Assembly (NCBI RefSeq): GCF_030811115.1
Contig: NZ_JAUSQK010000001.1
Location: 310,001-374,000 of the forward strand
Source of the DNA: Olsenella profusa DSM 13989
GTDB lineage: Bacteria > Actinomycetota > Coriobacteriia > Coriobacteriales > Atopobiaceae
DNA: 64,000 nucleotides
Direction of reading: 5' to 3'
The notes beneath the pieces were generated by a model. The model had not been told where the DNA came from and searched no databases. It saw nothing but the letters and a program-made list of their open reading frames with translations. Shown piece by piece: positions 11,147 to 38,795 of this stretch. Position 1 is the first letter of the stretch. Every line of letters begins with the position of its first letter. The position numbers and the translations under genes were made by a program.

Positions 11147-11151
11147 CGCCG

Positions 11152-13389: not shown

Positions 13390-14217
13390 CTATGCCACCG
13401 TGCCCTCCTGGGGCCGACGCTGTTTGCGTGAGGCAGCCAAGATGCCCATGCCCACCAGCACAAGCGGCATGGACAGGCACTGCCCCATCGTGAGCCAGTT
13501 GGTTCCCAGCAGGTACCCAAGCTGCGCGTCCGGCAGGCGCACGAACTCGATGAGGAACCTGAAGCAGCCATACAGCACGAGGAAGGCACCCATGAACGTA
13601 CCCTGGGGACGTGGCGGGTACCTGCGCGAGAGCGCATAGAGCACCGCAAAGAGCACCAGGCCCTCGAGGATGGCCTCATAGAGCTGCGACGGATGCCGAT
13701 ACACCGCGCCGCCGCCACTGTCAGAGAACATGACGCCCCACGGCAGGTCCGTCGGCTTTCCCCACAGCTCGCCGTTGATGAAGTTTGCGCAGCGTCCGAA
13801 GAAGAGGCCCCACGGCGCGCCAATGACGGCGAGATCGCACATGGTGGGGATGGAGATGCGCAGGGCCCTGCATGCGATGGATCCCCCGACAAGCCCTCCT
13901 GCCAGGCCACCGTGGAAGCTCATGCCACCCTCGTTGAAGGCAAGCGCCTTGAGGGGATTGGCAAGGTAGTATCCCGCCCCGTAAAAGAGCACGTAACCGA
14001 GGCGTGCGCCGACGATGATGCCGATGGCCACGCCGATGACGGCGCTCATGACGTCATCGGAGGAGAGGTCGAGCTTCCAGCGGCGGGCCGTGCGCCAGAT
14101 GATGATGCCAGCGACGACGAAGCCCGCCACGTAGGCGATCCCGTACCAGCGGACAGCGAGGGGCCCCAGCTGAAAGGCAACGGGATTGAGCGTGTGATAG
14201 AGCTTGTCAAGCCACAT
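13390..14217 (-). CDS. lgt: Prolipoprotein diacylglyceryl transferase
   Basis: Lgt transfers diacylglycerol from phosphatidylglycerol to the lipobox cysteine of prelipoproteins at the membrane. The protein has about seven membrane segments, the conserved FHGGLAGG region, and the Lgt signature GRCANFINGELWG near the middle, which contains the catalytic and lipid-binding residues. The start is set at the ATG at 14217 (MWLDKLYHTLNP), which matches the family N-terminus and has GAGAGGG upstream; an ATG at 14262 is possible. A lipoprotein substrate candidate, the phosphoesterase at 58.7 kb, is present in the window. Confidence 0.94.
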   Translation of the reverse strand: MWLDKLYHTLNPVAFQLGPLAVRWYGIAYVAGFVVAGIIIWRTARRWKLDLSSDDVMSAVIGVAIGIIVGARLGYVLFYGAGYYLANPLKALAFNEGGMSFHGGLAGGLVGGSIACRALRISIPTMCDLAVIGAPWGLFFGRCANFINGELWGKPTDLPWGVMFSDSGGGAVYRHPSQLYEAILEGLVLFAVLYALSRRYPPRPQGTFMGAFLVLYGCFRFLIEFVRLPDAQLGYLLGTNWLTMGQCLSMPLVLVGMGILAASRKQRRPQEGTVA

Positions 14218-17272: not shown

Positions 17273-17365
17273 GGGGTCAGATCCCTTCGTGCAGGGGGTC
17301 AGGCGGGCAGCAGCCCATGATAGCGCAGCGGGACGTCCGGGGGAGGCAGCCGTACACGAAGGGAA

Positions 17366-17388
17366 TGGCCCAGGAGGCTCCCTGGCCA
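17366..17388 (-). terminator. Weak stem-loop after the glucosaminidase gene
   Basis: TGGCC and GGCCA arms with an inner GGAG/CTCC pairing lie about 55 bp past the stop of the wall-hydrolase gene, in the spacer before the U32 gene. There is no T tract. It may be a terminator for the two-gene hydrolase unit. Confidence 0.3.
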
Positions 17389-17439
17389 ACCCCTGGCATC
17401 CGCGCACGAAACGCCACTGCAGGTCACACCGACGATCGC

Positions 17440-18417
17440 CTAGTAGCCCAAGCCAAGGTAGCGATCCTCGAGCGAGACGATCCTCATGCCATAGCCAGCG
17501 TCAGCGGCCCAGCCCACGCCTGCGGGATAGTCTGGGATGCCCAGCCCCTGCACCATGGTCACACTGCCCCGGCGCACATAGCCAAAGCGTGGGTCCAGAC
17601 GGGCTCTCACCAAGTCCGCCGTGCTGGCATAGGCCTTGAGATGCTGGACCTGCACCCGAAGTCCCGCCCGCACGCCATCCGAGCTGCCATCGCCATCTAG
17701 GTCCATGCGCAGGTCGTTGCCCTTGGCGCCACCGCCCACGGCACCGATGCCGGCAAAGTTGCACTGCTCGACGGAGACGTCCCCGCCAAACCTGAGCCAA
17801 TTGGTCTCCAGCATCACCTGGGCAAAGACGATCTCACCGCTGACGCCCTCGGTGTCCGCCTCCTCGACGAGCACCCGGCAGAACTGGTCTATGGTGGCCG
17901 CCCCCTGGGATGCGTACACGGAGGAGGGATAGGAGGACTCCCCCACCGCCTGCCGATAGGCGCGCGCCATCTGCTGCGCCGTGACCGTCGTGGGCCCCAT
18001 GATGGCCTGCGGCCGCTGGGAGGCCCCCGTCCAGGCGCCCGACGAGGCCAGCTGCCAGTAGGTGGCCCCATCCCACAGCCAGCCGGTTGCCATGGCACCG
18101 GACGCGCAAAGGTAGTACCAGGAGTCATCCACGCGCAGCCAGCCGGTGGCCATCGCCCCGGAGTCCCGCAGGTAATACCAGGAGCCACCCAGATACTGCC
18201 AGCCCGTGCGCATCGTGCCCGCCGCGTCGAAGTAGTACCAGCTGCCGTCGATGGCATGCCAGCCCGTCACCCGCGTACCGGCCTCGACGTACTGCCACGT
18301 CTGGCCCTCGTGCACCCAACCGTCACTCGGCTGGGCGAGGGCAGGCGTCTGTCCCACTGTCAGGACGCATGCGATGCCCGCTGCCACGAGTCCCACAAGT
18401 CTCAGGACGCGCCTCAT
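17440..18417 (-). CDS. Secreted glucosaminidase-like wall hydrolase with choline-binding-type repeats
   Basis: The signal peptide is residues 1 to about 28 (VGLVAAGIACVLTVGQTPALAQ). Four to five CW_binding_1 repeats follow (units such as GSWYYFDAAGTMRTGW and SWYYLCASGAMATGW), the modules that bind choline-bearing teichoic acids in pneumococci. The C-terminal ~160 residues resemble the endo-beta-N-acetylglucosaminidase family, with the catalytic-Glu segment FAQVMLETNWLRFGG and NFAGIGAVGG. The ATG at 18417 has GGAGGGGGAG upstream. The gene sits 61 bp downstream of a second repeat-bearing hydrolase, so the two are probably one operon. It should act outside on peptidoglycan. Confidence 0.87.
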   Translation of the reverse strand: MRRVLRLVGLVAAGIACVLTVGQTPALAQPSDGWVHEGQTWQYVEAGTRVTGWHAIDGSWYYFDAAGTMRTGWQYLGGSWYYLRDSGAMATGWLRVDDSWYYLCASGAMATGWLWDGATYWQLASSGAWTGASQRPQAIMGPTTVTAQQMARAYRQAVGESSYPSSVYASQGAATIDQFCRVLVEEADTEGVSGEIVFAQVMLETNWLRFGGDVSVEQCNFAGIGAVGGGAKGNDLRMDLDGDGSSDGVRAGLRVQVQHLKAYASTADLVRARLDPRFGYVRRGSVTMVQGLGIPDYPAGVGWAADAGYGMRIVSLEDRYLGLGY

Positions 18418-18478
18418 GCGCTCCCCCTCCGTGAACGTGAGCGAGCGTCGGCCACCCAGGGTGAGCCGGCACCATGCC

Positions 18479-19825
18479 CTACCTGCTGGCACCCGTCCAG
18501 GCACCGGACGGGCCAAGCTCCCATTCCCGAGCGCCCTCGCGTTGCCATCCCGTGAGCATGGCGCCCGAGCCGCCGAGGAGGTACCAGGAACCTCCGACTT
18601 TCACCCAACCGGTGGCCATGGCGCCAGAATCGTAGAGGTAATACCATGCGCCATCCGTCCATATCCAGCCCGTATGCATGGCACCCGAGGAGGGGTCGAG
18701 GTAGTACCACGTGGAGCCAATGCGCTGCCAGCCCGTGATACGGGCACCGGAACCATCGAAGTAGTACCAGGAGCCATCCAGCCGACGCCAGCCGGTCGCC
18801 ATGGCGCCTGAGGCATCAAACCAGTAGTGAACGCCACCGATGATCTGCCACCCCGTGACCATATAGCCCTGGCCATCCAAGTAGTACCAGGCATTGCCCA
18901 GGTACCTCCAGGCACTCCGAACGTACGAGCCACTCTCCCTGACCATCCAATGCTGGCCATCGGATGACCGCTCCCAGGTGGCGGCCAGGCCATAGTAACG
19001 CATGATGGCATCCGCATCGGCCCTGCCCATGGCCTCGGCATGGCGATTGAGGTTATAGGCATCGGAGGCGTTGTCGATGAAGCCGTGCTCCACGATGATG
19101 CCGGTGAAGCCATATTCGCGGGCATGGCGGATGACGGCGTAGTAGTCGGAGAGCGACCCGTCGGGATAGGTGTCCTCGACGTTCTTGCGCTGGAAGATGC
19201 CGCGGCGCGCGATGCCATAGGGCTCGCCGTTGGTGAGCGCATCGAGGATGGCGCTTGCGAGGCCCTGTCCCTGCGTGCCGCATTCGGGAAAGTACGAGAT
19301 GTCCGTGCGGGGATACCACACCTCGGCACCAGAACTGCCACCGGAGTTGACGTGCAGGCTCACATACACGCTTGCGCCGGCCTTGTAGGCCTTGGTCACA
19401 CGAGCCTGCAGCTCAAGGGCGGCGTTGGTGCTGAACACGCAGGTGTCGGAATCGCGAATCATACACACGGTGATGCCATGACTCTCGAGCTCCGCCTTAG
19501 CGGCCATTGCAATGCGCAGGTTGAGGGCCTTCTCCTGGAGGCCGTTGCCCACGGCGCCGGCGTCGTTGCCGCCATGACCCGCATCGAGCGCAACCACGAA
19601 CTTACCCGAGCTGCCGAGGCCCGTGGAGCGCATGCGCCTCGTGGTCGTGGTCTGCGGCGGGAGGGCGTCGTTGATCCTCTGCATGTCCTCGTCAGAGATG
19701 GGTGCGGTCTCGGCATCATCGGTGGCCTCGGTGGCAGATGCGCGGCCTGGTGTAGTCAGTAGCACCGAGAACATCAGCGCAAAGGCTGTCACGAGGACGA
19801 TGGGCATGGACTTCTTCTGCCTCAC
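18479..19825 (-). CDS. Secreted N-acetylmuramoyl-L-alanine amidase (Amidase_3) with choline-binding-type repeats
   Basis: A signal peptide (PIVLVTAFALMFSVLLTTPG) leads to a zinc amidase domain. ALDAGHGGNDAGA near residue 78 provides the first zinc His, SLHVNSG the second, and IVEHGFIDN near residue 243 the catalytic Glu; AEVWYP is typical of the family. From about residue 290 there are seven or so CW_binding_1 repeats (GNAWYYLDGQGYMVTGW, GSWYYFDGSGARITGW and others). The start is a GTG at 19825 with GGAGGAG six bases upstream, giving 448 residues. It cleaves the peptide from muramic acid, and the repeats would tether it to choline-decorated wall polymer. Confidence 0.92.
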   Translation of the reverse strand: MRQKKSMPIVLVTAFALMFSVLLTTPGRASATEATDDAETAPISDEDMQRINDALPPQTTTTRRMRSTGLGSSGKFVVALDAGHGGNDAGAVGNGLQEKALNLRIAMAAKAELESHGITVCMIRDSDTCVFSTNAALELQARVTKAYKAGASVYVSLHVNSGGSSGAEVWYPRTDISYFPECGTQGQGLASAILDALTNGEPYGIARRGIFQRKNVEDTYPDGSLSDYYAVIRHAREYGFTGIIVEHGFIDNASDAYNLNRHAEAMGRADADAIMRYYGLAATWERSSDGQHWMVRESGSYVRSAWRYLGNAWYYLDGQGYMVTGWQIIGGVHYWFDASGAMATGWRRLDGSWYYFDGSGARITGWQRIGSTWYYLDPSSGAMHTGWIWTDGAWYYLYDSGAMATGWVKVGGSWYLLGGSGAMLTGWQREGAREWELGPSGAWTGASR

Positions 19826-19902
19826 TGCGAGCTCCTCCCCGCCGGATACGGGCCACCAACCCTCTGTCCAGCATACTAAAGGAAGCGCCTGTCCCACCTT
19901 TC

Positions 19903-23229: not shown

Positions 23230-23990
23230 CAACGGCCCGTTGCCGGCGCCCTTCCATGCGACAGCGTCAGGGCCCGCATCGTTATGCGCGTCACCGGCCA
23301 CTTCCGTCGAGGGCGTGGCGCGTGCCATTGATCGAGAACGGCGTGCTGTGCACCATGGCACCACTGGCAGAGAGCCAGCACCACGAGTCGTCCCCCCTCC
23401 TCGAACCAGCCCGTGTGGCCCCTGCCATGCTCGAGGTGGTGGTACGCGCCGCTGACCAGCTGCCATCCATCCGGGACGGTGGAGCCAGGCTGGATGAGGC
23501 CGCCTGCAGTCATGATGTCCCCAGCGTATGGCCGGCCGCCCATCGTCCCGTCCGCGAGCGTCAGGCCTCCCTGCTGGGAGGAGACGTCCTCCGCCGTGGC
23601 CAAGGGGCCGTTCTTGTAGGCATGCGCAGATGCCCGCAGGGTTGGGAAGCAGGGCCCGGTTGGGATCAGCGACGAGCCTCGTGCCTATCTGGCCACGAGC
23701 GAACGTGGTGGTCATGAGGGGGTGGCCCGAGGCGGTCATGACGTCTGCGGGATGGTAGCGGGGCTCCAGCTGGTTGAGGGTCTCATAGGTATCCTCGGGC
23801 AGGCGACAGAACCTCCCCGTCTGAGGCGCGATCTGGGGTGAAAGCGCACGCAGGTAGCCGGGCGTGTTCGATGCGGGCCATCCATGATGGCCCGGCTTGA
23901 GAGCGTCAACGTGGATTCGTCAGGAAAGGCCAGCATGCCCACGCGCCACGGCCGCGGTGCCCGCAATGCGGGCGTATCCCATGAATGTTC
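23230..23990 (-). pseudogene. Decayed secreted metallo-beta-lactamase-fold protein with choline-binding-type repeats
   Basis: No intact frame covers this stretch, but pieces in different frames line up in the order of one gene. At about 23900 the segment VDALKPGHHGWPASNTPGYL has the GHHG metal-binding motif of ComEC-like metallo-beta-lactamase-fold enzymes; a TGA lies just before it. LPEDTYETLNQLEPRYH follows in frame, then a shift to YAGDIMTAGGLIQPG and GAYHHLEHGRGHTGWF, and a further shift to LSASGAMVHSTPFSING with ALDGSGR, which are CW-binding-repeat sequences. At least two frameshifts and one stop are needed to explain it. It was probably a third wall-binding secreted protein of the hydrolase set. 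Confidence 0.6.
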
Positions 23991-24059
23991 CCAGCCGCCC
24001 CACAGAATCGCATACACTGGTCAGGGTTTGTCAATCCGCTATGCACAGGGAGCCGCCTC

Positions 24060-24737
24060 GTGAGGGTGCTTGCCATCATACCCGCCTACAACGAGCAGGA
24101 ATGCATCGAGGACACCGTGGATGAGCTGGTACGCACCTGCCCACAGGTGGACTACCTCGTCGTGAACGACGGCTCGGCAGACGACACGCCACAGATCCTC
24201 GACCGGCGGGGCTTCAATCACATCGACCTTCCCGTCAACTGCGGACTCTCCGCCGGCGTGCAGGCGGGCATGAAGCATGCGCTGCGCAACGGCTACGACG
24301 CTGCCGTGCAGTATGATGCGGACGGGCAGCACATGCCCATCTACCTCGCGTCGATGGCACAGGCCATCGAACACGGCGCAGACATCGTCATCGCATCGCG
24401 TGGGGCCGCCGGGAGTGGGGCCGTTGGTGTGCGCGGCGCCGGCGCCAAGCTCATCACCTGGCTCATTCGCCACACCACACATCAGACCATCCAAGACCCC
24501 ACCTCGGGCATGCGCATGTACGATCGCGCCATGATGGAGGTCTTCGCCAACGGTTTCGACATCACGCCCGAGCCGGACACCGTGGCCCTGCTCATCCGCA
24601 AGGGCGCCCGCGTGGTGGAGGTGCCCGCCCAGATGCGCGAGCGTCAGGGCGGCACCAGCTATCTCCGCTTCATGAGCTCCATCCGCTACATGCTGCGCAC
24701 GTGCCTGTCGCTGCTGCTCTTCCAATGGTTTAGGTAA
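24060..24737 (+). CDS. Glycosyltransferase family 2 (dolichyl/undecaprenyl-phosphate sugar type)
   Basis: This is a GT-A fold enzyme with the nucleotide-sugar motifs VLAIIPAYNEQ at residues 3-13, VNDGSADDT near residue 40 and the metal-binding YDADGQH near residue 88; GMRMYDR is a typical acceptor-side element. It lacks membrane segments of its own, but a DUF2304 membrane protein follows 10 bp downstream, a pairing often seen for enzymes that load sugars onto undecaprenyl phosphate. The start is the GTG at 24060 with AGGGAG eight bases before it; the in-frame ATG at 23985 is too far upstream. At 225 residues it is short but complete. Confidence 0.88.
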   Translation: MRVLAIIPAYNEQECIEDTVDELVRTCPQVDYLVVNDGSADDTPQILDRRGFNHIDLPVNCGLSAGVQAGMKHALRNGYDAAVQYDADGQHMPIYLASMAQAIEHGADIVIASRGAAGSGAVGVRGAGAKLITWLIRHTTHQTIQDPTSGMRMYDRAMMEVFANGFDITPEPDTVALLIRKGARVVEVPAQMRERQGGTSYLRFMSSIRYMLRTCLSLLLFQWFR

Positions 24738-24747
24738 GGGGTGCCCC

Positions 24748-25110
24748 ATGAGCCCGGTCCTTCGCGTCCTTCTGATCCTCGTCACCATCATCGCCCTGGG
24801 CGTGGTGGTGCGACGCATCCGCAAGCGCAAGATTCGCGTCTCGGAGTCGGTCTATTGGGTGGTGGCCGCCGTCGTACTGCTCGTCCTGGCCGTCTTCCCG
24901 CAGATTGCGTTCTTCTTCTCCCGGCTTACCGGCTTCCTCTCGCCCAGCAACTTCGTGTTCGTGGTGCTCATCGCCCTCATGCTGCTCAAGCTGTTTGACC
25001 AGGCCTGCGACATCTCGGTGCTCACCCACAAGGTCGAGGTGCTCTCGCAGGAGCTTGCGCTCGACCGGCACGAGCGGGGGCACGACGCCGCCAAGCCCTC
25101 AAAACAATAG
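24748..25110 (+). CDS. DUF2304 family small membrane protein
   Basis: The protein has three hydrophobic segments (about residues 5-21, 33-55 and 65-85) and a cytoplasmic coiled-coil-like tail (THKVEVLSQELALDRHE). This matches DUF2304 proteins, which are encoded directly after GT2 glycosyltransferases and probably anchor them to the membrane. The spacing to the GT2 stop is 10 bp. It converges with the lic operon, with only 28 bp between the stops; a short GCCTC/GAGGC hairpin lies there. Confidence 0.82.
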   Translation: MSPVLRVLLILVTIIALGVVVRRIRKRKIRVSESVYWVVAAVVLLVLAVFPQIAFFFSRLTGFLSPSNFVFVVLIALMLLKLFDQACDISVLTHKVEVLSQELALDRHERGHDAAKPSKQ

Positions 25111-25138: not shown

Positions 25139-26935
25139 CTAGTCCGCCTGAGCCGCCTCCTCGTACCAGGAGAGCACCTTGTCAACGTTGTCCGCGGCGT
25201 AGCGGTAGTAGACGAACAGCCACTCGCCCACGTTGTCGCCCTCGGACTCCTTCTCGAGCGACCACAGGTACCAGCACCAGCCGGCGAACACCACATAGCT
25301 CCAGAAGTGACGGCGCTCTGCCGCCGTGGCGGGCCGACCGAAGTAGTACTCGAGCGCCCGCTCGGCACGCTCGTCGGAGAGCTGGCAGCACACCACGAAC
25401 GTGCCGTAGTCGCTGGCCACGTCCGACATGCCCGCATACTCCCAGTCGATGAGGCTCATGGCGTCGTTCTCGTCCACCAGGAAGTTGAGCTCGAAGAAGT
25501 CGTTGTGTGAGACGCAGATGGGGTACCCATCCGCGTCCGCATGCTCCTTGAGGCGCATGACCTTGTCCTTGAGCTCCTGATAGCCAGGCACCTCGATGGG
25601 GCCGCCCTCCAGCAGGAGCCGCTCGTACTCCAGACCCTGCAGCACGAAGTCAAAGCGGCGATCGAGCCTAGCGCCGCTCTCGTGCAGCTTGCGGCCCATC
25701 TCCATGGCACGACGCAACTGGTCGTCGTTGCCGGAGTCCAGGTTCTTGGCGTTCGTCACGAAGCGCGAGAGCTTCCAGCCATGCTCCTCGTCCTCGTAGA
25801 TGAAGGTGCTGTCCAGCCCCAGCTCCTTGGCAAGGCGCAGGCCGGCCGCCTCGCTCGCACGGCTCACGAGCTTCTCCGTGCCCACGCCAGGATGGCGGTA
25901 GACGTACTCCTGCTTGTCCGTGCCCTCCCCCACGGAGAAGTGGCAGGAGAGGTTGGTGAGCCCCTGCTTGAGCGGCCAGAACTCGTGAATGTCATCCTTG
26001 TCGCAGTGCAGGATGGATACGATGTTGTCAAAGATCCTGGAGTCCACGTTCTCCATGAAGCGTGGGTCGAAGCTGCGCAGCTGATCCAGGGAGTCAAACT
26101 CGTTGATCACGCCCGCCGGGTACTCACGCGCCACCATCGAGAGTTCGCGCAGGTGATCGGCATAGATGCCCTCCCAGAGCTTGTCCGCGGTCTCGGGGCG
26201 GTTGTAGTCCTGCTCCAGCGCCCTCACGAACCCCTCGGAGAACGCCCGGTCGAAGTAGGCGTGTCCCAGCATGACCAGCGCATTGGTGCCACCCACGCTG
26301 ATGCCCATGATGCGCCCGGCGGCGCCCGTGGAGACGCACCACTCGTCCGTGTGGCCCTCCACGCGCTCGCAGGCATAGTAGGCGCCGTACACGTAGCGTT
26401 CGAAGGGGTTCTGCGTGAAGTAGTCGTCCGACGAGCACACGTAGGTGTTGGCCAGACGGTCGCGCACGAGCCACAGGGTACCGTTGTTGTTACGCGTGGC
26501 GTAGGTGGGGTTGACCACGATGGTGACGCCATACTTGCTGCGCAGGTAGAAGAAGTACTCCTTCTTGTAGCCCACGACCACGGTGATGTCGGTGACGCCG
26601 GCATCCATGAGCTGGCGGATCTGACGCTCGATGAGCACCTCGCCATGGGCCTTGAGCAGGCCCTTGGGCAGCTCATACGAGATGGGGGCAAAGCGCGACG
26701 AGAGGCCCGCCGCCATGATGACGGCATTGTCCACCGCATAGGGCTCGAGCGCCTCCATGCCCGCCTGCGTGATGCGCCCATCCTGCACGTACTCCGCATC
26801 CTCGCACACGCGCAGCGACGAGTTGACGGTGCCCAGCGAGAGGCCGCTCTCGGCGGCAAGCTCGCGCTGGCTCACGGGGCCCTCCTGGGCCGCGATGGTC
26901 TTGAGCAGATTGAACTCGCTCTTGGAGAGGGTCAT
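25139..26935 (-). CDS. Winged-helix / LicC-like cytidylyltransferase / LicA-like choline kinase fusion
   Basis: Three modules are visible in 598 residues. Residues 1-65 form a winged helix-turn-helix (SQRELAAESGLSLGTVNSSL). From about residue 68 a nucleotidyltransferase of the LicC type follows, with AVIMAAGLSSRFAP and LPKGLL. From about residue 300 a choline-kinase fold carries the phosphotransfer motif SHNDFFELNFLVDE and DWEYAG, exactly the LicA pattern. The enzyme would phosphorylate choline and activate it to CDP-choline. The ATG at 26935 has AGGAGG six bases upstream and starts one base after the licB stop. It is the last gene of the operon. The HTH, absent from the paralogue, could regulate the operon or be structural. 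Confidence 0.85.
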   Translation of the reverse strand: MTLSKSEFNLLKTIAAQEGPVSQRELAAESGLSLGTVNSSLRVCEDAEYVQDGRITQAGMEALEPYAVDNAVIMAAGLSSRFAPISYELPKGLLKAHGEVLIERQIRQLMDAGVTDITVVVGYKKEYFFYLRSKYGVTIVVNPTYATRNNNGTLWLVRDRLANTYVCSSDDYFTQNPFERYVYGAYYACERVEGHTDEWCVSTGAAGRIMGISVGGTNALVMLGHAYFDRAFSEGFVRALEQDYNRPETADKLWEGIYADHLRELSMVAREYPAGVINEFDSLDQLRSFDPRFMENVDSRIFDNIVSILHCDKDDIHEFWPLKQGLTNLSCHFSVGEGTDKQEYVYRHPGVGTEKLVSRASEAAGLRLAKELGLDSTFIYEDEEHGWKLSRFVTNAKNLDSGNDDQLRRAMEMGRKLHESGARLDRRFDFVLQGLEYERLLLEGGPIEVPGYQELKDKVMRLKEHADADGYPICVSHNDFFELNFLVDENDAMSLIDWEYAGMSDVASDYGTFVVCCQLSDERAERALEYYFGRPATAAERRHFWSYVVFAGWCWYLWSLEKESEGDNVGEWLFVYYRYAADNVDKVLSWYEEAAQAD

Positions 26936-26936
26936 G

Positions 26937-27878
26937 CTAGGCCTCCTGTGACGTGGCGCCAAGCATCGAACGAACGTCCGTCGCCGCGCAGATGGCACCC
27001 AGGATGATCACGATGGCGCAGACGACGCCCTTGACGTCGGGGATGGACCCCAGAATGATGAGTGAGATGGGTATGGCCCACGCCGAGTAGGTGATGTTGA
27101 CCGCCATGGCGCGTGACGCGCCGATGAGGTCGATGGCACGGTAGTAGCAGAGGTAGGACACCGTGCCCGAGGCGCCCGCGAGCGCGACGAAGGGCATGGC
27201 ATCGCTGCCAAGCACGTCCGTCGCAAAGCCCCAGCCGCCCAACACCGGCAGGATGATGGCGGCATAGGCAAGCGCCGAGGTGGTCTGCCTGATCTGCATG
27301 GCCACCTCGTTGTCCACAGCGGTGTTCCTGAGGCCCCAGTCGACGACGACCGCCTCGGTGCCCCAGCCCAACACGCAGGCGAGCGCACCGATGATACCCA
27401 CGGTCCAGTTGCCGGGAATGCCCTCGGCAGGCGTGTAGCCCAGCACGGCCACCGCGGCAAGGCACGCGATGAGACCCAGCCACTGAAACCAGTGCATGCG
27501 CTCCTTGAGCGCGATGGCCGCCAGGAAGGCCCCCCATGCCGGGAAGAAGGCGGAGATGGCGGCGGCATAGGACGCCCCGATGTTATTGACCGAGATGACG
27601 TAGCCCGTCATGCCGAGGGGGCCACCGATGAGCGCTGCCCCCATGATCACGAGGCCGGCCCGCGTCTTGAGGATGGCCAGCGTGTCCTTGAGCTTGCGAC
27701 GCAGCGCCATGTAGACGAACGCCGTCACGGCCGAGCCCGCGTCATGCAGGAACGTGCTCACGAACGCCGCGAGCGCGATGGCCTGCGGCGTGGAGACGAA
27801 GACGCCCTTCGCGAGCGCCACCGAGAGGATGACCGTATCGAGCGCCCAGGTGAGCGCCGCCCCAAAGCCCCAGATCAT
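26937..27878 (-). CDS. licB: EamA/DMT family transporter, LicB-like choline permease
   Basis: The protein has ten membrane segments arranged as two EamA repeats, 313 residues, matching LicB, the choline importer of lic operons. The N-terminus IWGFGAALTWALDTVIL and the segment GPLGMTGYVISVNNIGASYAA are family-like. Its start codon overlaps the stop of the upstream LicC-LicA fusion (ATGA) and its stop is one base from the next fusion gene, so the three genes are a tight operon. Choline as substrate is inferred from this context; other DMT substrates cannot be excluded from sequence alone. Confidence 0.83.
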   Translation of the reverse strand: MIWGFGAALTWALDTVILSVALAKGVFVSTPQAIALAAFVSTFLHDAGSAVTAFVYMALRRKLKDTLAILKTRAGLVIMGAALIGGPLGMTGYVISVNNIGASYAAAISAFFPAWGAFLAAIALKERMHWFQWLGLIACLAAVAVLGYTPAEGIPGNWTVGIIGALACVLGWGTEAVVVDWGLRNTAVDNEVAMQIRQTTSALAYAAIILPVLGGWGFATDVLGSDAMPFVALAGASGTVSYLCYYRAIDLIGASRAMAVNITYSAWAIPISLIILGSIPDVKGVVCAIVIILGAICAATDVRSMLGATSQEA

Positions 27879-29566
27879 GAGTGAGCCCCTTTCGTCCCGT
27901 CCTCATACCAGGCGAGGACCATGTCGATGTAGTCGGCGCAGTAGCTGCGGTAGATGTCCAGCCACGAGCCCACGCCGGCACCCTCCGCCTCCTTCTCGAG
28001 CGCCCAGACGTACCAGCACCATCCGCCCAGGACCACACGGGCCCAGAAGTGCCTGCGCTCCTCGAAGGTCGCCGGGCGACCAAAGTAGGCGTCGATGGCG
28101 GCATCGCCTCGTGCGCGGTCGGCGTCGCTGCAGATGATGAAGGTGGCCGTGTCGTTGCCGGGGTCGCCCATGCCGGCAAACTCCCAGTCAATGACAAAGA
28201 GCTCGTCGTCCTCGCCCACGAGAAGGTTGAGTGGCAGGTAGTCGTTGTGGCTGAAGACCGCCTCGTAGCCGTCCGCCTGGGCATGCCCGTTGACGCGCAC
28301 CACCTTGTCGCGCAGCTCATGGTAGCCAGGCGCGGTGATGTCGCCATGCTCCTCGAGCAAGGTCTCGTAGCCTACGCCATCGGCAAAGAAGTCGAACGTG
28401 GCGGGGATGTGCGCCCCCGACTCGTGGAGGCGTCGCGCGCACTCCATGGCACGACGCACGTCAGCGGGATCCGTGGGGTCGATGGTGCGGGCGTTGCGCA
28501 CGAAGTGGGAGATCTTCCACCCGCTCGTGGGGTCCTCGTGGACGAAGGTCCCGTCGATGCCCATGCGTACGGCGACCGCCTCGGCGTCCGTCTCTGCTTG
28601 GCGGTTGATGAACTTGTCGGTCCCCACGCCAGGATGGCGGTATACGTACTCCCACCTGCGCTCGCCCTCCCCCACGGAAAAGTGGAAGGAGAGGTTGGTG
28701 AGGCCCTGCCCCACGGGACGGAAGTCGCCGAGGTCCCTGCGGGAGCAGCGCAACGTGGTCGTGATGTTGTCAAGCACCGCACAGTCCACGGACTCGATGA
28801 AGGCAGGATCATAGGCGACAAGCTCGTCGAGGCTGTCGAACTCGCGGATGACCCCCTCGTCGTAGCGACGCATGATCAGGGCGAGCTCGTCCAGGTGGTC
28901 GGCGTAGATGGCCTCCCACAGGCGGTCCGCCGTGGTGGGATCCTCGACCTCCGCGCCCAGGAGCCGCACGAACCGCCGGGAGAAGGGGCGGTCGAAGTAG
29001 GCGTGGCCCAGCATGACCCAGGCGTCCGCGCCGCCCACCTCGACGTAGACGATGCGCCCGTTGCCGTCCGTCCGCAGGCACCACTCGTCGGTGGGACCAG
29101 CCACGTACTCCGCCGCGTAGTAGGCACCACGCACGTAGCGCTCGAAGGGGTTCCGCTCGAAGTAGTCGTCCGACGAGCACACGAAGGTGTTGGCCAGGCG
29201 GTCGCGCACGAGCCAGAGCGTGTAGTTGTTGTTGCGCTCCGCATAGCGGTCGTTGACCACGAGGTCCACGCCGAAGGCATCCGCCAGGTAGGCAAAGCGC
29301 TCCTTCCGGTAGCCCACCACCACGGTGATGTCGGTGATGCCAGCCTCCCTGAGCTGGCGGATCTGGCGCTCGATGAGTACCTCCCCCCTCACCGTGATGA
29401 GGCCCTTGGGCGTCTTGTACGAGATGGGCACGAAGCGCGACGAGAGGCCCGCCGCCATGATGATGGCATTGTCCACCTGGTAGGGTGCGAGCGTCGCCTG
29501 GGCCGCGGCGTCCCCTGCGAGCGCACGCTGCTGGAGCCGTTCGAATTCGTCCTGCGCTATCGCCAT
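27875..29566 (-). CDS. LicC-like cytidylyltransferase / LicA-like choline kinase fusion
   Basis: This is a 563-residue bifunctional protein without the winged helix of its paralogue. After a 30-residue polar leader comes NAIIMAAGLSSRFVP with TPKGLI (nucleotidyltransferase), then from about residue 270 the kinase half with FSHNDYLPLNLLVGED and DWEFAGMGD. It shares architecture and many motifs with the downstream fusion, so the pair arose by duplication and have diverged; they might use different amino-alcohols or form a heteromer. It is the first gene of the lic operon, preceded by a candidate promoter and a long hairpin. Confidence 0.85.
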   Translation of the reverse strand: MAIAQDEFERLQQRALAGDAAAQATLAPYQVDNAIIMAAGLSSRFVPISYKTPKGLITVRGEVLIERQIRQLREAGITDITVVVGYRKERFAYLADAFGVDLVVNDRYAERNNNYTLWLVRDRLANTFVCSSDDYFERNPFERYVRGAYYAAEYVAGPTDEWCLRTDGNGRIVYVEVGGADAWVMLGHAYFDRPFSRRFVRLLGAEVEDPTTADRLWEAIYADHLDELALIMRRYDEGVIREFDSLDELVAYDPAFIESVDCAVLDNITTTLRCSRRDLGDFRPVGQGLTNLSFHFSVGEGERRWEYVYRHPGVGTDKFINRQAETDAEAVAVRMGIDGTFVHEDPTSGWKISHFVRNARTIDPTDPADVRRAMECARRLHESGAHIPATFDFFADGVGYETLLEEHGDITAPGYHELRDKVVRVNGHAQADGYEAVFSHNDYLPLNLLVGEDDELFVIDWEFAGMGDPGNDTATFIICSDADRARGDAAIDAYFGRPATFEERRHFWARVVLGGWCWYVWALEKEAEGAGVGSWLDIYRSYCADYIDMVLAWYEDGTKGAHS

Positions 29567-29730: not shown

Positions 29731-31812
29731 CTAGTCGGACTCGACGATGGGCCAGATGGTGCCCGTCTCCGTCCAGTTTCCAAAGTCGCATGAGTCGCCG
29801 TCGATGCGCCACTGGCGGATGTAGGTGCGCCTCCAGGTGCCATTCTCGTTGACGGCGGCCGTCGCGCCATAGTAGCGTGGCCGGGGGACGTCGGGCACCT
29901 CCCACGCGGGCATGCCCGTGGGCCATGGCTCCCCACCCGTGGCGGCGAGGATGGTTGCCGGCAGGTCCATGTGGCCTGTGGGCACGTTGGAGGTCCTGCA
30001 CGGTTGGCTGGAGTCGCCGCCGAGCTCCACGGAGGGTTTCACCAGGAAGATGGGCGACGAGGGTTCGCTGATCTCGTCCGTGAGGTACCAGTGCCCATGG
30101 TCGGCCGTGATGATGATGGTCGCATCATCGTACTTGCCCAGCCTCTTGAGCTGCCTCAGGTACTCGCTCACGATCTCCAGCGAGCCGCGCGACTGCTGGA
30201 CCTGCGTCACCTCGCCCTGGGCGTACTCGCCATGCTCGTCCATGGTGAACGGTGGGTGCGAGCCCAGCAGGTGGATGAGACGATACGACCCCTTGCCGGA
30301 GTCCGGCTCCACCGAGAGGCCACGTCTCTGGAGCATGTGGTGGTAGGACACGTCGTCGTAGACGTAGGGCTCGTTGTCGAGGTCGACGCTGGGATCGGAT
30401 GGGTCGTTGGTCCGCAGCACCGCGTTGTTGAGGTCATCGGTGTTGAACCACATCCCCGGCTTGAGCGCCCATGGCAGGTCGCGGTAGAAGGCCGCCCTTG
30501 CCAGGATGGAGATCGTGGACAGGAAGCTGTTCGGCTGGGGTGGGATGGGGTGCAGGTTGGTGACCCTGCCGTTGAGCTGCGACAGTCCGTTGTAGATGTC
30601 CCCCGAGTAGATGCTGGTGGAGTAGCCGGAGCGGTTGACGGCATCCACCAGGTTGTCGCCGCCGTACCAGCCGCGCACCAGCGTGTTGGAGAAGGCCGGG
30701 TCGTCCTGCCTGAGCGTGCGCCCCGTGGTGAGCGTGGCCAACGCGTAGCGCGTGGGGATCATGTTGCCCACGGTGTTGTGGTAGTTGGTGAAGCCCGTCA
30801 TCTCGTCCAGCGCGTCGGGATACTGCGCCAGCGTCTGGTCGAGGAAGCTCACGTCAAAGGTGTCCAGCACGAACACGATCACGTTGCCCCTGTCCGAGAC
30901 GTCCATGAGGCCCTCCATGGTCACCTGCGGCTTCTCGGCACTCACGGGGGTACCGTCGGCCGTGGGGCGCCGCGTGGTGAGGCCCAGCCCGATGCCCTGC
31001 GACACGGCGAGGAGCACGGCGAGGAGCACGGCCACGCCCTTGAAGGGCAGGGGCCGCCTGAGGGCGAACGCCACGGCACCCGCGATGACGACAACCCACA
31101 CGAGCGCCGAGATCACCGTGATCCCCTGGAACGAGTCCCACGGAACCGGGGAGCCATCTGCCGCGGGCAGCCCGACGTTGAGCAGGAGCACCTGCAGGAA
31201 GGCCGCAAGCGCCAGAGCGCTCACCAGCGCCAGCAGGACGTTGAACGCCTTGCCCCTGGCAAGGGAGATGACGAGCGCCAGTGCGACGGCGACCGCAAGT
31301 CCCACCACGACCACCGGCTTCCAGATGGTGACGATGGTGAAGAAGAGGCTGTCCGTGCTGGCCGCCACCATCTCGAGCGCCGGCTCCACGAAGATCGTGA
31401 ACACCGCCACCAAGCACACGACGAGCGCGAGGACGAGGCGCACATGCCAGGGCAGGCGTTCCTGAGCCGGGGCGTCCACGACAAGCGATGCGTGATGCGC
31501 CTGCTCGCGGGCGCGCTCATGCGCGGCGGCGTCCGAGGGGTCGACCCGATGCACCTCACCCTCCCGCACACGTGCCTCGTGCGCGCCCAGGAGTCTCAGG
31601 AGCACGCGACGCAGACGGCGCCATGCCACGCCCAGCACGGCCGAGAGGGCCACGGCCACGCCGGCGAGGGCCTGGATGGTGTAGGTCATCACCGAGGGGT
31701 CCACGTACGCGAGGGCTGGGGTGGCCAGGGCGTTGGCCCACACGCAGGCCAGCGCACAGGCAAAGGCGACGTCGCACGCCACGAGGGCACGTCTCGGCAT
31801 CCTAGTCCTCAT
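29731..31812 (-). CDS. LtaS-like membrane sulfatase (phosphoglycerol-transferase superfamily)
   Basis: The first ~270 residues contain a signal-like helix and about five more membrane segments with a charged cytoplasmic loop. The rest is an extracellular alkaline-phosphatase-fold domain. The segment NVIVFVLDTFD (about residue 308) gives the first metal ligand, NMIPTRYALATLTTG (about 353) the probable Thr nucleophile, GSHPPF a metal or substrate His, and TADHGHW (about 571) the Asp-His pair. Such enzymes move phosphoglycerol or phosphoethanolamine groups onto wall polymers. The ATG at 31812 has GGAGGAGG upstream inside the end of the YidC-fusion gene; an ATG at 31800 is the alternative. The two genes overlap or abut and form an operon. 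Confidence 0.82.
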   Translation of the reverse strand: MRTRMPRRALVACDVAFACALACVWANALATPALAYVDPSVMTYTIQALAGVAVALSAVLGVAWRRLRRVLLRLLGAHEARVREGEVHRVDPSDAAAHERAREQAHHASLVVDAPAQERLPWHVRLVLALVVCLVAVFTIFVEPALEMVAASTDSLFFTIVTIWKPVVVVGLAVAVALALVISLARGKAFNVLLALVSALALAAFLQVLLLNVGLPAADGSPVPWDSFQGITVISALVWVVVIAGAVAFALRRPLPFKGVAVLLAVLLAVSQGIGLGLTTRRPTADGTPVSAEKPQVTMEGLMDVSDRGNVIVFVLDTFDVSFLDQTLAQYPDALDEMTGFTNYHNTVGNMIPTRYALATLTTGRTLRQDDPAFSNTLVRGWYGGDNLVDAVNRSGYSTSIYSGDIYNGLSQLNGRVTNLHPIPPQPNSFLSTISILARAAFYRDLPWALKPGMWFNTDDLNNAVLRTNDPSDPSVDLDNEPYVYDDVSYHHMLQRRGLSVEPDSGKGSYRLIHLLGSHPPFTMDEHGEYAQGEVTQVQQSRGSLEIVSEYLRQLKRLGKYDDATIIITADHGHWYLTDEISEPSSPIFLVKPSVELGGDSSQPCRTSNVPTGHMDLPATILAATGGEPWPTGMPAWEVPDVPRPRYYGATAAVNENGTWRRTYIRQWRIDGDSCDFGNWTETGTIWPIVESD

Positions 31813-33733
31813 CGGTGGCCTCCTCCTCGTCCTGGGAACCCTTGGCAACCTGCTTGGCCAGGACCTCGCCCAGCAGGAACTCGCCCGCCGCCGCACCGCC
31901 GTGGCCCAGGTTGGCGATCATGCGCTCGCGCACGGTGCGAATCCGCTCCGCCCAGCGCCCGGAATCGGCCACCATGTCGTCCACGGCAGCGCGCAGGCCG
32001 GAGAGGTCCTTGGGGTCCACGGAGACGCCGATCTCGCTGCGGATGGAGATGTCCAGGGGCGTCCAGCCCGTGATCTTGGGCCAGTCGGGGTTGAGCTCCT
32101 TCATGGTGGTGTCCACGAAGAGGCAGGGCTTGAGCGTGGTGAGGGAGAACTCCTCGGCGATGGACGACCAGTCGGTGGCCAGCACGTCGGCCTCCAAGAT
32201 GGAGGAATGGCCCGAGAAGTCGCACTCGAAGGTGAGCTCGTCCTCACCCACCTCGCTGTAGCGCGCCATGAGGGCATCGAGCTTGGCACGGTAGCGCTTG
32301 ATGTACTCGGGATGCGGGCGTACCGTGATGTGGTAGCCATGGTCCAGGAGCTGCGCCAGCATGCCGTCGATGCAGGAGTCCAGGATGTTGTCATAGTTCC
32401 ACGTGGGGGCGATGAGCACCTCGGGGCGCTCGTGGCGCACCTTCTCCATGGCCGCGTAGTCCGCAATCTCGCGGTCCAGGAGATCGTAGCCCACCAGTGG
32501 CAGCTTCTTGTGGCGCGTGCCGTAGAACTCCTCAACCGCGCGGGCGTCATCCACCTGGTGCTGGCCCACGCACATCACGGCGTCGTAGTTGGCGTACTCG
32601 CCGCGCGTGGAGGTGACGGTCATCGAGGTCATGTGGTGGGGCGCGTACACATACTCGGTGTCCTTGTCCACGTAGGAGCGCTTGATGTAGAAGTTGTCCA
32701 GGTCGCCGAGGGAGGTCACCACCACGTCGGCGTCCATCTTCATCATGAGGGTGATGAGCCGGCGCTGCCCCAGATAGTAGGGTTGGATGCGCGGCTCGGA
32801 GAGGGCCAGCTCGAACACCTGGTCGTTAGGGTCACTCGTGACGTAGTGGATGCGCACGTCGGAGTTTGCGAGCAGCCACTCGATGGCACCCTGGAAGTAC
32901 TTGTAGAAGCCCGACCCCTCCGAGTAGAACACCAGGTGCTTGCCATCCACCTTGAAGAAGCGCTTGTAGTCGGCCTTCTCGCGGCGGGCGTGTGGGTCGC
33001 GCTGCCACCACCTGTGCTCGCTCCTGGTGGCCTCGACCATGGCATCGTAGGAGTCGCGCGTCTCGTTGAGCTCGTCGTAGTCGATGTACCTGGATGGCCT
33101 GATGATGAGGTTGCACACCACCTGCACCAGAATGGAGAGCAGGTTGGAGCACACCCAGTAGAAGGCCATGCCACATGCCACGAAGAACGCGAGGAACATG
33201 GAGAGCGCGATGGAGAGGCCGTTGGTAGTGTTCTTCTCCGCGCGCGACTGCTCGCGCTGCAGCGGGTTGATGTGGTTGGAGGCGACGCCCATGGCCACGG
33301 CGGACAGCGTGGCCAGAAGCACCATCACGAGGGAGGCGCCACCGTCCTGGCTGGGCACCAGGCCCAAAAACTCCGTGCCGGGAGCGCCGCTGTCGGTGAT
33401 GGCGTGGATGACGTCCACGAGCGCGAACAGGATGATGACCTGGATGGCCAGGGGCACCAGGGAGAGCAGCGGGTGGTAGTGGTGCTCCTTGTAGAGGCGG
33501 TTCTGGTTCTCGTCGATGGCCTCGCGGTCGCCAAAGTAGCGCTCCTTGAGGCGGAACAGGTCGGGCATCACCTGCACCATGACGATGGAGTTCTTCTGGC
33601 ACCACAGTGAGAGTGGCATGAGGACGACCTTGGACACCAGGGTGAACACGAAGATGGCCACCCAGTAGCTCCCCGTGAGGCCATGGGCCCAGTCCACGAT
33701 GACCAGGAAGAGGTCGGTAAGCGGTTGAAGCAT
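31802..33733 (-). CDS. YidC/Oxa1-like membrane domain fused to a CDP-glycerol glycerophosphotransferase (TagB/TagF) domain
   Basis: Residues 1-220 have the YidC/Oxa1 layout: membrane helices, the amphipathic stretch VQVMPDLFRLKERYFGD, LYKEHHYHPLLSLVPLAIQ, and a last helix FYWVCSNLLSILVQ. The normal NPLGGC loop and basic C-tail are not conserved. From about residue 262 a soluble glycosyltransferase-B domain follows, with VFYSEG, the TagF-type RPHPEY near residue 471 and the DWSSIAEEF motif near residue 521, which correspond to the acceptor and CDP-glycerol sites. It probably polymerises or primes a glycerol-phosphate chain at the inner face of the membrane. It is not the housekeeping YidC. The ATG at 33733 follows AGGGAC. 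It heads an operon with the sulfatase. Confidence 0.85.
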   Translation of the reverse strand: MLQPLTDLFLVIVDWAHGLTGSYWVAIFVFTLVSKVVLMPLSLWCQKNSIVMVQVMPDLFRLKERYFGDREAIDENQNRLYKEHHYHPLLSLVPLAIQVIILFALVDVIHAITDSGAPGTEFLGLVPSQDGGASLVMVLLATLSAVAMGVASNHINPLQREQSRAEKNTTNGLSIALSMFLAFFVACGMAFYWVCSNLLSILVQVVCNLIIRPSRYIDYDELNETRDSYDAMVEATRSEHRWWQRDPHARREKADYKRFFKVDGKHLVFYSEGSGFYKYFQGAIEWLLANSDVRIHYVTSDPNDQVFELALSEPRIQPYYLGQRRLITLMMKMDADVVVTSLGDLDNFYIKRSYVDKDTEYVYAPHHMTSMTVTSTRGEYANYDAVMCVGQHQVDDARAVEEFYGTRHKKLPLVGYDLLDREIADYAAMEKVRHERPEVLIAPTWNYDNILDSCIDGMLAQLLDHGYHITVRPHPEYIKRYRAKLDALMARYSEVGEDELTFECDFSGHSSILEADVLATDWSSIAEEFSLTTLKPCLFVDTTMKELNPDWPKITGWTPLDISIRSEIGVSVDPKDLSGLRAAVDDMVADSGRWAERIRTVRERMIANLGHGGAAAGEFLLGEVLAKQVAKGSQDEEEATDED

Positions 33734-36785: not shown

Positions 36786-36920
36786 GACATATGTGGTCCA
36801 AGACCTCCACCGCAGCCCCAAAATCTCCTGCCCAATGAGCATTATTCTCTCTCGTCTGCACGAGGCAAAGTACCTTACAATGGCTAAGAAATACATCAGG
36901 TGTGTTTCCGGAGGGGATTC

Positions 36921-38795
36921 ATGTCGAACAGTAGGCCGAACATCAAAATCTTCATTTCCACTCATAAGGACCGTGTCTATTTTCCAGATAATGAGCTTAT
37001 CAAGCCAATCCAAGTGGGCTGTGCCCTTCATAACACCCATTTCCCCGGAATGCTCCACGATGACGAGGGAGACAATATCTCCTCTAAGAACGCCTCCTAT
37101 TGTGAGCTGACCGCCCAGTATTGGGTCTGGAAGCACGAGGATGCAGACTACTTCGGCTTTATGCACTATCGTCGTTATTTCTCGTTTTCTGATGAGCATT
37201 TTAAGACTAATTACTTCGGCGACGTGTTTGAAGACATCAATGACGAAAAGACGCTCAAGAAAATGCACTTCGATGAGGAGCACATGCGTGCAAAGATTGA
37301 ACCTTATGATTTCGTGATTTCTGAACCCGGTTCGTTTGTGGACGGACAGACCATGCGTCAACAGTACGATAGCTCTTGGGAGCAGAAGTCTGAAGACCTC
37401 GATTGTGTGCTTAATATTATTCGTGAGCGTTATCCCGAATTCGTCGATGTTGCAGAGCGCTATCTCAATCAGACTGAGGGCTACTTCTGCAACATGTTCA
37501 TTATGAAGCGTGAGATATTCCGCAAGTACAGCGAATGGCTGTTTGACATTCTAGAGGAACATGAGAAGCGCCGTGACATTTCTGACTACGACATCACGTC
37601 CTACCGTGTAAGTGGGTATCTGTCGGAACGTCTCTGTGGCATCTATGTTACCTGGCTCAAGGAGCAAGGTTATGCCTACAACACGCTACAGCGCGTGCTC
37701 TTCAGACACGTAGAGGCTATCGAGCATCTCTCCCCCATCTTTGAAGGGAAGAATCCTGTAACCGTAGTCTTCTCAGCAAATGACTATTATGTACCTTACC
37801 TCGCAGCATTGCTCCAATCCATCAAGGACACCTCTTCGAGGGAGCGCTGCTACGACCTCATTGTACTCACCCAGGATATTTTTCTTGAGAACCAGGCCCA
37901 GCTCAAACGCCAAGTAGAAACAGACAATATCAGCTTACGTTTCTTAGGCGTTTTTCGAGCCATGCATGATTACCAGGACAAGCTGTTTACACGCGGCCAC
38001 TTCAAGGTAGAGACATACTTCCGTCTGCTCCTGCCACAATTACTGCCTGCCTATCACAAAGTGCTCTATTTAGACTCTGACATGGTTGTCTTGCGTGACG
38101 TAGCGACGCTCTTTGACGAGCATATTGAGGGCTACCTAGTTGCAGCCTGTAAGGATCCAGATACAGCAGGCCTGTATAATGGCGCGGCTTCTCACAAGAA
38201 GGAGTATATGGACAATATCCTTGGCATCAAGGATCCCTACTCTTACTTCCAGGCAGGTACGATCCTGTTCAATCTAGATGCATGGCGCTCAACTTATACG
38301 CCAGACGAAATCTTTGCCTTTGCCTCGTCTTATAAGTGGGAGCTTCTTGACCAGGATGTTCTTAATTACCTATGTCAAGGCTACGTAAAGTTTGTTCCCA
38401 TGGACTGGAATGTCCTGATGAACTGGCGTGGGGTCAGACTCTCGCGCATCATCTCGCGTGCACCGCGCGATATGTACTTTGCCTATGTGGAGGCACACAA
38501 GCATCCTGCCATCGCCCATTTTGCTGGGCCAGATAAACCCTGGGATATTCCCTCTGCAGATATGGCCCCTTACTTCTGGCATTTCTCGCGTAAAACCGTG
38601 TATTACGAAGAAGCGCTGGCGCGCATGGCACACGAAAACGCCCAGAAGGAGCGCTCGCTTACGCCCAAGGAGTTTATCTACCAGCGCATGATTACTCCCG
38701 TAGTACAGAAGGCGTTCCCTGAGAAGACCAAGGGATTTGAGAGGCTCCGCAATGTGTATCGCAAAGTCAATCCAAAAAAGAGTGACATCTTCTAG
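36921..38795 (+). CDS. DUF4422 / GT8 two-domain glycosyltransferase
   Basis: Residues 1-245 are a DUF4422 domain (FISTHKDRVYF, GFMHYRRYF, TEGYFCNMFIMKREIF), a putative glycosyltransferase of capsule and LPS loci. Residues 270-540 are a GT8 domain with VVFSANDYYVPYLAALLQS and the metal-binding DxD in LYLDSDMVVL near residue 383; NWRGVRLS follows. The fusion could add two different sugars to one glycan. The ATG at 36921 has GGAGGGG six bases upstream. The gene is AT-richer than the chromosome around it and is the only plus-strand gene in this part, so it is probably a transferred surface-glycan gene. Confidence 0.85.
   Translation: MSNSRPNIKIFISTHKDRVYFPDNELIKPIQVGCALHNTHFPGMLHDDEGDNISSKNASYCELTAQYWVWKHEDADYFGFMHYRRYFSFSDEHFKTNYFGDVFEDINDEKTLKKMHFDEEHMRAKIEPYDFVISEPGSFVDGQTMRQQYDSSWEQKSEDLDCVLNIIRERYPEFVDVAERYLNQTEGYFCNMFIMKREIFRKYSEWLFDILEEHEKRRDISDYDITSYRVSGYLSERLCGIYVTWLKEQGYAYNTLQRVLFRHVEAIEHLSPIFEGKNPVTVVFSANDYYVPYLAALLQSIKDTSSRERCYDLIVLTQDIFLENQAQLKRQVETDNISLRFLGVFRAMHDYQDKLFTRGHFKVETYFRLLLPQLLPAYHKVLYLDSDMVVLRDVATLFDEHIEGYLVAACKDPDTAGLYNGAASHKKEYMDNILGIKDPYSYFQAGTILFNLDAWRSTYTPDEIFAFASSYKWELLDQDVLNYLCQGYVKFVPMDWNVLMNWRGVRLSRIISRAPRDMYFAYVEAHKHPAIAHFAGPDKPWDIPSADMAPYFWHFSRKTVYYEEALARMAHENAQKERSLTPKEFIYQRMITPVVQKAFPEKTKGFERLRNVYRKVNPKKSDIF

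Follow-up and report, generated by a model that had tools for sequence, protein, structure and literature searches.

The 64,000-nucleotide stretch of DNA analysed here (the window) comes from Olsenella profusa DSM 13989, a gut and oral bacterium with a genome of 2.6 Mb in one contig, and our subject is a gene within it to which we give the working name YTF (YidC-TagF fusion). YTF encodes a YidC-type membrane domain and a TagF-type transferase domain within one protein, and the gene for an LtaS-like membrane protein, hereafter the partner, begins one base past the YTF stop. An earlier note, made from the sequence alone, had claimed an uninterrupted frame for YTF, and the frame is indeed open over 643 codons. 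The features concerned are:

31802..33733, minus strand: YTF, 643 amino acids in a single frame
33074..33733, minus strand: YidC/Oxa1-type membrane domain of YTF, residues 1-220 (PF02096, alignment to E. coli YidC, fold match to 3wo7)
31844..32947, minus strand: TagF/TarL-type GT-B phosphotransferase domain of YTF, residues 263-630 (PF04464, VIA-align, hhalign)
29731..31800, minus strand: the partner, a predicted LtaS-like membrane phosphotransferase of the alkaline-phosphatase superfamily, 689 amino acids (PF00884, co-occurrence, profile search)

In Pfam, residues 23-208 of YTF match PF02096 (60KD_IMP) above the cut-off, with an E of 1.7e-28, and residues 397-539 match PF04464 (Glyphos_transf; E 7.6e-6, 25.6 bits against a cut-off of 22.1), while the NCBIfam YidC C-terminal model is barely above its own threshold (87.1 bits against 84.3). 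The RPHPEY and DWSSIAEEF motifs that had been ascribed to the second domain are both found in the sequence. The structure predicted by AlphaFold2 from a 68-row alignment reached a predicted local distance difference test score (pLDDT) of 90.4 and a predicted template modelling score of 0.74. Its N-terminal part (model residues 1-219) is YidC-like, as had been proposed, and superposes on B. halodurans YidC2 (3wo7) with a Z of 18.6 and a root-mean-square deviation (rmsd) of 2.7 over 199 residues. For the C-terminal part (residues ~241-630), VIA-align put S. aureus TarL with bound cytidine diphosphate (CDP)-ribitol (8va1; Z 21.2, rmsd 3.9, 306 residues) and TagF (3l7k; Z 20.9, rmsd 5.5, 332 residues) at the top, and the Foldseek listing was headed by unrelated GT-B enzymes. 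UDP-GlcNAc 2-epimerases fall within ~1 Z of the TarL and TagF matches, so that the ranks are tied and the fold by itself leaves the donor unfixed. YTF combines a YidC fold with a transferase of TagF/TarL type.

Full-length relatives of YTF were found in 34 of the 140 genomes when the fusion was searched for across the host's family. A scan of genome contigs returned 129 relatives, and the taxa represented among the best 80 of these loci, which were retained for analysis, are Coriobacteriia, Lachnospiraceae, Oscillospiraceae, Erysipelotrichaceae and Candidatus Saccharibacteria, five carriers from the last group having genomes of 0.7-0.8 Mb. The 67 relatives that were aligned (Coriobacteriia, Firmicutes, Saccharibacteria) match YTF over its full length at 37-79% identity, and a record from Olsenella profusa F0195 is 100% identical. 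An assembly error is excluded by these full-length relatives, of 37-100% identity, in independent assemblies. A phylum-wide search at E 1e-60 was positive in nine of 396 sampled genomes; seven are already known family members, and the other two are a full-length case from the same order (G426) and a genome with the C-terminal domain alone (G333). We also built a tree of 32 YTF, 28 stand-alone YidC and 6 YidC-sulfatase rows (the last from a second fusion family described below) by a quick method; it has several long branches, and its sister groupings are not relied on. The YidC parts of the 32 YTF proteins form a single clade in it (Shimodaira-Hasegawa-like approximate likelihood ratio test 100), which makes it likely that YTF arose once and later passed from phylum to phylum.

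A mobile or viral origin of YTF was considered and rejected: no plasmid record among 21 covers 80% of the YTF query, and in the 10 of these that are listed the matches comprise the YidC part only. Three short unannotated faecal records labelled 'Bacteriophage sp.' carry relatives that match YTF at ~40% identity across 92-94% of its length and are most likely mislabelled bacterial DNA. A viral fold library returned mostly generic GT-B proteins, with one CDP-glycerol glycerophosphotransferase (Bacillus phage SP-15). Stand-alone relatives of the C-terminal domain also occur, as a frame (L046:15070-16335) near a fusion of a cytidylyltransferase with a pyridoxal phosphate (PLP) enzyme and as frames of 413-445 amino acids in the family search; they are possibly the same transferase without YidC.

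The pairing of YTF with an LtaS-like sulfatase, pointed out earlier for this window, where the two are neighbours, extends across the family: the partner is present in 33 of the 34 YTF-positive genomes and in none of the 106 YTF-negative ones, and the single carrier without a match (G011) is an assembly 88% complete in 260 contigs. Fisher values for genome counts of this kind take no account of common descent. The partner lies within 3 kb of YTF in 22 of 25 long-flank Coriobacteriia loci and in 16 of 28 elsewhere; neighbour counts, here and below, exclude records L001-L032, which largely duplicate later ones, and were not otherwise made non-redundant. Moreover, YTF and the partner share one frame in seven distinct records (L016, L017, L044, L046, L048, L068 and L112; L023-L026 repeat four of these). 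Residues ~25-85 of the partner match a small membrane protein of ~90 amino acids that many Firmicutes loci encode as a gene of its own (18 of the 41 loci outside Coriobacteriia), where the remainder of the partner is another gene; the partner of the window is therefore itself a fusion.

The model of the partner (pLDDT 86.9) has five long helices (118-276) and then a sulfatase-fold domain. Residues D313, D567 and H568 are present in all 68 rows of the partner alignment, which was likewise not made non-redundant, and position 350, the nucleophile place, holds Thr in 64 rows, including the partner itself, and Ser in 4. A profile search of the Protein Data Bank placed LtaS first (E 3.8e-11) and a phosphonate monoester hydrolase next (1.6e-10); in the fold search many sulfatases tie with or exceed LtaS and LtaP in Z. 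What speaks for a phosphotransferase, and against a genuine sulfatase, is the Thr together with the membrane region and the profile match, not the fold ranks. A second PF00884 sulfatase-type protein, encoded at 55675-57867 of the window on the minus strand, gives a marginal match to the partner (E 6.9e-4).

One explanation of this linkage is that the YidC domain has kept its insertase function and now serves just the LtaS-like partner and the small membrane protein, the fusion coupling their insertion to the enzyme. That YTF and partner are adjacent or fused and that the YidC fold is intact speak for it, as does a carrier genome (G156) with fused YidC forms only and no stand-alone match, though this is a metagenome assembly. 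On the other hand, the separate housekeeping yidC that the earlier note had suggested looking for exists, as an ordinary yidC in a 263-amino-acid frame at C1:736055, and a stand-alone yidC is also present in 19 of the 20 further YTF carriers examined. Fused forms would in addition need to insert themselves, and we know of no LtaS-type protein elsewhere that needs a private insertase. We therefore consider a dedicated insertase very improbable. YTF as the housekeeping yidC itself was rejected, given the second yidC in the genome and the differing YidC clades. In four Saccharibacteria genomes (G149, G150, G152 and G155), YTF and the stand-alone yidC share a contig and are ~14-22 kb apart.

Residue conservation was tallied over the 68 aligned rows (YTF and its 67 relatives). 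Judged from this alignment, both halves of YTF look functional, because the catalytic His pair and the groove charge are conserved, and a substrate-linked motif is changed. In the YidC half, many core positions within residues 30-213 are invariant across phyla, and K35, which is Lys in 67 rows and Arg in one, aligns with an Arg of E. coli YidC that we take to be the conserved groove Arg. The NPLGGC loop had been described as missing, which is largely right: YTF has HPLLSL instead, and the loop of the relatives is mostly [H/N]-P-[L/M]-[L/A]-S-L, although a few of them keep a Gly (at position 90 in one row, at 91 in three). The basic tail is absent, as had also been stated, the tail after the fifth transmembrane helix being mixed in charge and followed by the enzyme domain.

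In the transferase half, H366 and H474 are invariant (68 of 68 rows); H474 lies in RPHP, and global hhalign placed H366 on the His of the WHG motif. In TagF, H444 within WHG is the likely base and H584 a ligand of pyrophosphate, and WHG is named as the signature of glycerol-phosphate transferases, in the excerpted text of PMC11666461. YTF retains the His within an altered motif. The tryptophan place (position 365) is Pro in YTF and, over the 68 rows, P in 30, F in 22, Q in 6 and C in 4, with Trp absent from the six commonest residues (66 of the 68 rows), and Gly directly follows the His (position 367) in 25 rows.

YTF is the first of five consecutive same-strand genes of an operon, in the order YTF, LtaS-like partner, LicC-LicA, EamA, LicC-LicA. 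The lic genes that the earlier note had seen close by thus adjoin YTF and its partner, in support of a lic-linked envelope pathway. The remaining genes of the operon and two choline-related genes further along are:

27875..29566, minus strand: LicC-LicA-type fusion, copy 2 (cytidylyltransferase and choline kinase-like), 164 bp after the partner
26937..27878, minus strand: EamA permease, with presumed LicB-like choline uptake, overlapping the preceding gene by 4 bp
25139..26935, minus strand: LicC-LicA-type fusion, copy 1, with an N-terminal winged helix, its ATG one base past the EamA stop
18479..19897, minus strand: choline-binding-repeat N-acetylmuramoyl-L-alanine amidase (PF19127, PF01473, PF01520)
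17440..18516, minus strand: choline-binding-repeat glucosaminidase-like protein (PF19127, PF01473, PF01832)

By domain content, the two LicC-LicA-type fusions and the EamA permease would cover the LicA, LicB and LicC functions. The winged helix on copy 1 may serve regulation by a headgroup intermediate, and the choline-binding-repeat amidase is a hint that the wall carries choline. LicD is absent from the operon, and the single LicD match of the genome is at C1:2516730, ~2.2 Mb off.

Headgroup-activating genes accompany YTF in other genomes as well. A LicC-LicA-type match better than 1e-80 occurs in 29 of the 34 YTF-positive and 29 of the 106 YTF-negative family genomes, and four genomes (G002, G003, G006 and G079) combine LicC-LicA, choline-binding repeats and YTF with no LicD match. 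Outside Coriobacteriia, a LicC/PntC-type cytidylyltransferase is found in the fetched flanks of 25 of 41 loci, and in 20 of the 28 loci whose flanks extend 5 kb or more in each direction, compared to 0 of 20 control windows. The controls, which come from 17 carrier genomes (three being Coriobacteriia), were not chosen at random: 16 include or border on a stand-alone yidC, another is ~9 kb away from yidC and three are elsewhere. The cytidylyltransferase is joined to or near a choline kinase at L087, L100 and L101, a CobD-like PLP enzyme at, for example, L103, L092 and L105, and a phosphoenolpyruvate (PEP) mutase at L071, L104, L081 and L090. The CobD-like fusions score below the CobD cut-off, and a CDP-amino-alcohol product is therefore something we infer. 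What YTF neighbourhoods have in common would be an activated small headgroup, the donor being our reasoned guess.

The earlier note had instead viewed YTF as a teichoic-acid-like polymerase with a CDP-glycerol glycerophosphotransferase domain, a view that may be widened to a polyol-phosphate polymerase or primase with CDP-glycerol or CDP-ribitol as donor. In favour of this, TarL with CDP-ribitol and TagF are the top solved-structure matches, both catalytic His are retained and PF04464 is above its cut-off. However, the own genome has no match to the glycerol-3-phosphate cytidylyltransferase (CDP-glycerol synthase) model, which is over cut-off in 21 of the 140 family genomes, in 1 of the 34 YTF carriers among them (G058) and in 1 of the 20 further carriers. 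PF04464 proteins of at least 100 bits track this synthase (18 of 21 genomes) and are present in 1 of the 34 YTF carriers; the only PF04464 match of the own genome is YTF. As for a CDP-ribitol route there, one IspD-type match appears among the matches listed, with three more weaker than 6.7e-41; LicC-type proteins also match the IspD-type model weakly, and a weak TarI relative is possible. With no synthase match, YTF as the sole PF04464 protein, a WHG motif whose tryptophan is not among the residues tallied and neighbours of the CDP-choline type, a CDP-glycerol teichoic-acid polymerase becomes less likely, and we hold a polyol-phosphate enzyme of either kind to be distinctly unlikely.

Several observations weigh against a choline-type donor. 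Below-cut-off synthase matches, which would speak for a polyol-phosphate enzyme, occur in six more family carriers (G024-G027, G079 and G081; four at ~115 bits) and in 10 of the 20 other carriers, and some of these may make CDP-glycerol or a similar donor. A LicD-family gene is present in 30 of the 34 YTF-positive genomes and close to YTF in G018, G028, G029, G037 and G087, so LicD could transfer choline and YTF do something else; in part of PMC6697681, LicD-like genes are noted in clusters of this kind in Olsenella uli and Atopobium rimae. Six genomes with LicC-LicA have neither YTF nor LicD (G080, G090, G100, G104, G110 and G136), and choline-binding repeats are present in four of the six. 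Another transferase must therefore exist, and little can be argued from a lack of LicD; in G100, a canonical PF04464 protein adjoins LicC-LicA in place of YTF. A cytidylyltransferase or kinase is close by in only 6 of the 25 long-flank Coriobacteriia loci, none of these headgroup-activating genes was found in 8 of the 28 other long-flank loci, choline-binding repeats are present in 22 of the 34 YTF carriers, and no donor-pocket residue of YTF could be tied to choline.

A PF02096 search of 20 YTF carriers revealed a second YidC fusion family, with seven further frames of 899-935 amino acids in three genomes of Lachnospiraceae or Clostridiales (five in G156, one each in G146 and G147). Among the six frames scanned, all match PF02096 and none reaches PF04464; PF00884 is matched at E 1e-3 by five, the sixth having PF02096 only. 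Four of these five are above cut-off as whole proteins, and two have a stretch that passes alone. Their YidC parts form a clade separate from that of YTF. The six scanned frames of this YidC-sulfatase family, all with an N-terminal YidC and no TagF domain and five with the sulfatase-type match further along the chain, are:

L184:4589-7303, 10763-13552 and 15330-18017, plus strand: three YidC-sulfatase family frames
L185:8823-11630, plus strand: YidC-sulfatase family frame
L186:7-2718, minus strand: YidC-sulfatase family frame
L187:5684-8392, minus strand: YidC-sulfatase family frame

That YidC has been joined twice to phosphotransferase-type enzymes is the best argument for a role of the fold beyond anchoring, and the second family favours a putative role in lipid handling over that of an anchor for the YidC domain of YTF. 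The competing view is that this domain is merely an anchor or scaffold: the TagF-like domain would use CDP-choline or a similar donor to modify a lipid-linked glycan on the inner side of the membrane, a conventional flippase or ATP-binding cassette (ABC) export would follow, and the LtaS-like enzyme would act later. TagF-family enzymes are peripheral membrane proteins, to which an anchor would be useful, and two Saccharibacteria loci (L097 and L103) have genes for ABC transporters nearby. Nevertheless, the YidC core, including K35 (67 of 68 rows), is conserved across phyla beyond what an anchor needs, and an anchor does not readily fit the second joining of YidC to a sulfatase-type enzyme. We regard a pure anchor as rather unlikely.

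We tentatively propose, with somewhat less than even confidence, that YTF is a membrane-embedded headgroup phosphotransferase whose YidC domain passes the charged lipid and whose LtaS-like partner carries out the transfer outside; YTF would then not be an insertase and is probably not a glycerol-phosphate polymerase. In this scheme, the LicC-LicA proteins of the operon would supply CDP-choline, from which the cytosolic TagF/TarL-like domain would move a zwitterionic or amino-alcohol phosphate to a membrane acceptor, candidates being diacylglycerol, a glycolipid or a polyprenyl-linked acceptor. The YidC-derived domain would hold the acceptor in its lipid-facing groove and let the charged lipid reach the outer face, where the partner, with its catalytic Thr, would attach the headgroup to a polymer of the wall or surface. 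The decorated polymer would then be gripped by choline-binding hydrolases, for example those encoded at 17440-19897. The first and last of these steps are suggested by gene content, the middle ones by fold and linkage, and it is in this sense that we infer the donor, the acceptor, the flipping and the direction of flow.

Lipid scrambling is described in portions of PMC10491306, in vitro for purified YidC, Oxa1 and Get1 and in simulation for proteins of the Oxa1 family. By analogy, the YidC domain of YTF might do likewise, although such in-vitro activity of YidC does not prove that the domain in YTF flips any particular lipid, a further point on the opposing side. A broader idea, which we regard as conceivable though rather doubtful, is that the YidC fold has been recruited at least twice as a built-in lipid flippase, once with a TagF-like and once with a sulfatase-type enzyme, and that YTF and its partner form a 'charge, flip, transfer' machine. 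If so, the pair would be the equivalent, for phosphates, of lipid-linked glycosylation systems in three parts, with phosphocholine, an amino-alcohol phosphate or a phosphonate as headgroup, and through it the Lic route of CDP-choline would be connected with an enzyme of LtaS/PptA type. We know of no natural system that uses the YidC fold for lipid traffic, and the compact YTF-partner gene pair makes such traffic testable.

Because YTF nearly always travels with an LtaS-like enzyme and here adjoins choline-activating genes, our findings suggest an undescribed way of charging small phosphate headgroups and flipping them onto the bacterial surface. The steps leading to phosphonyl modification are called unknown in part of PMC6697681; if the proposal is true, YTF and its partner would offer a candidate for the transfer step that is missing from accounts of how common gut and oral bacteria tailor their surfaces with phosphonate and phosphocholine.

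Three other parts of the window stand apart from these genes. A GT2 glycosyltransferase followed by DUF2304 (23985-25110, plus strand) faces the choline operon and is perhaps a polyprenyl-phosphate-sugar pair. At 36900-38795 (plus strand), DUF4422 and a family 8 glycosyltransferase are fused in one frame of 631 amino acids. The frame at 46905-49184 (plus strand), beside a stretch of 75% G+C, gives a weak match to a Mu transposase C-terminal model (E 1.9e-5, under cut-off) and is possibly a transposase.

In a literature search that covered few subscription journals, no title or abstract joined YidC with a glycerophosphotransferase, a sulfatase or LicD. Among known systems, the Lic-1 phosphocholine pathway (LicA-LicB-LicC-LicD) and the phosphonate PntC pathway, as presented in part of PMC6697681, resemble the CDP- and CMP-activating genes beside YTF; in contrast to Lic-1, LicD is outside the YTF operon, is without a match in four carriers and lies in the cluster in five others. 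LtaS and PptA/EptA-type enzymes share with the partner the five predicted helices and a sulfatase-fold domain with Thr at the nucleophile place, whereas the partner has an extra N-terminal small membrane module and is paired with YTF in nearly all carriers. TagF, TarL and TagB (PF04464) share with YTF the GT-B fold, both catalytic His and the RPHP and TD-W/Y-S motifs; unlike them, YTF has a built-in YidC and a changed WHG, and its carriers nearly all lack an over-cut-off CDP-glycerol synthase. The YidC/Oxa1/Alb3 insertases (PF02096; B. halodurans YidC2, 3wo7) have the core fold and the positive groove residue in common with YTF, which differs in being fused to an enzyme, in its changed NPLGGC loop, in lacking the basic tail, in forming its own clade and in lying among envelope genes. 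Collectively, the domains and the pathway logic are known, whereas the YTF architecture, its pairing with an LtaS-like enzyme and the YidC-sulfatase family are new to the literature searched.

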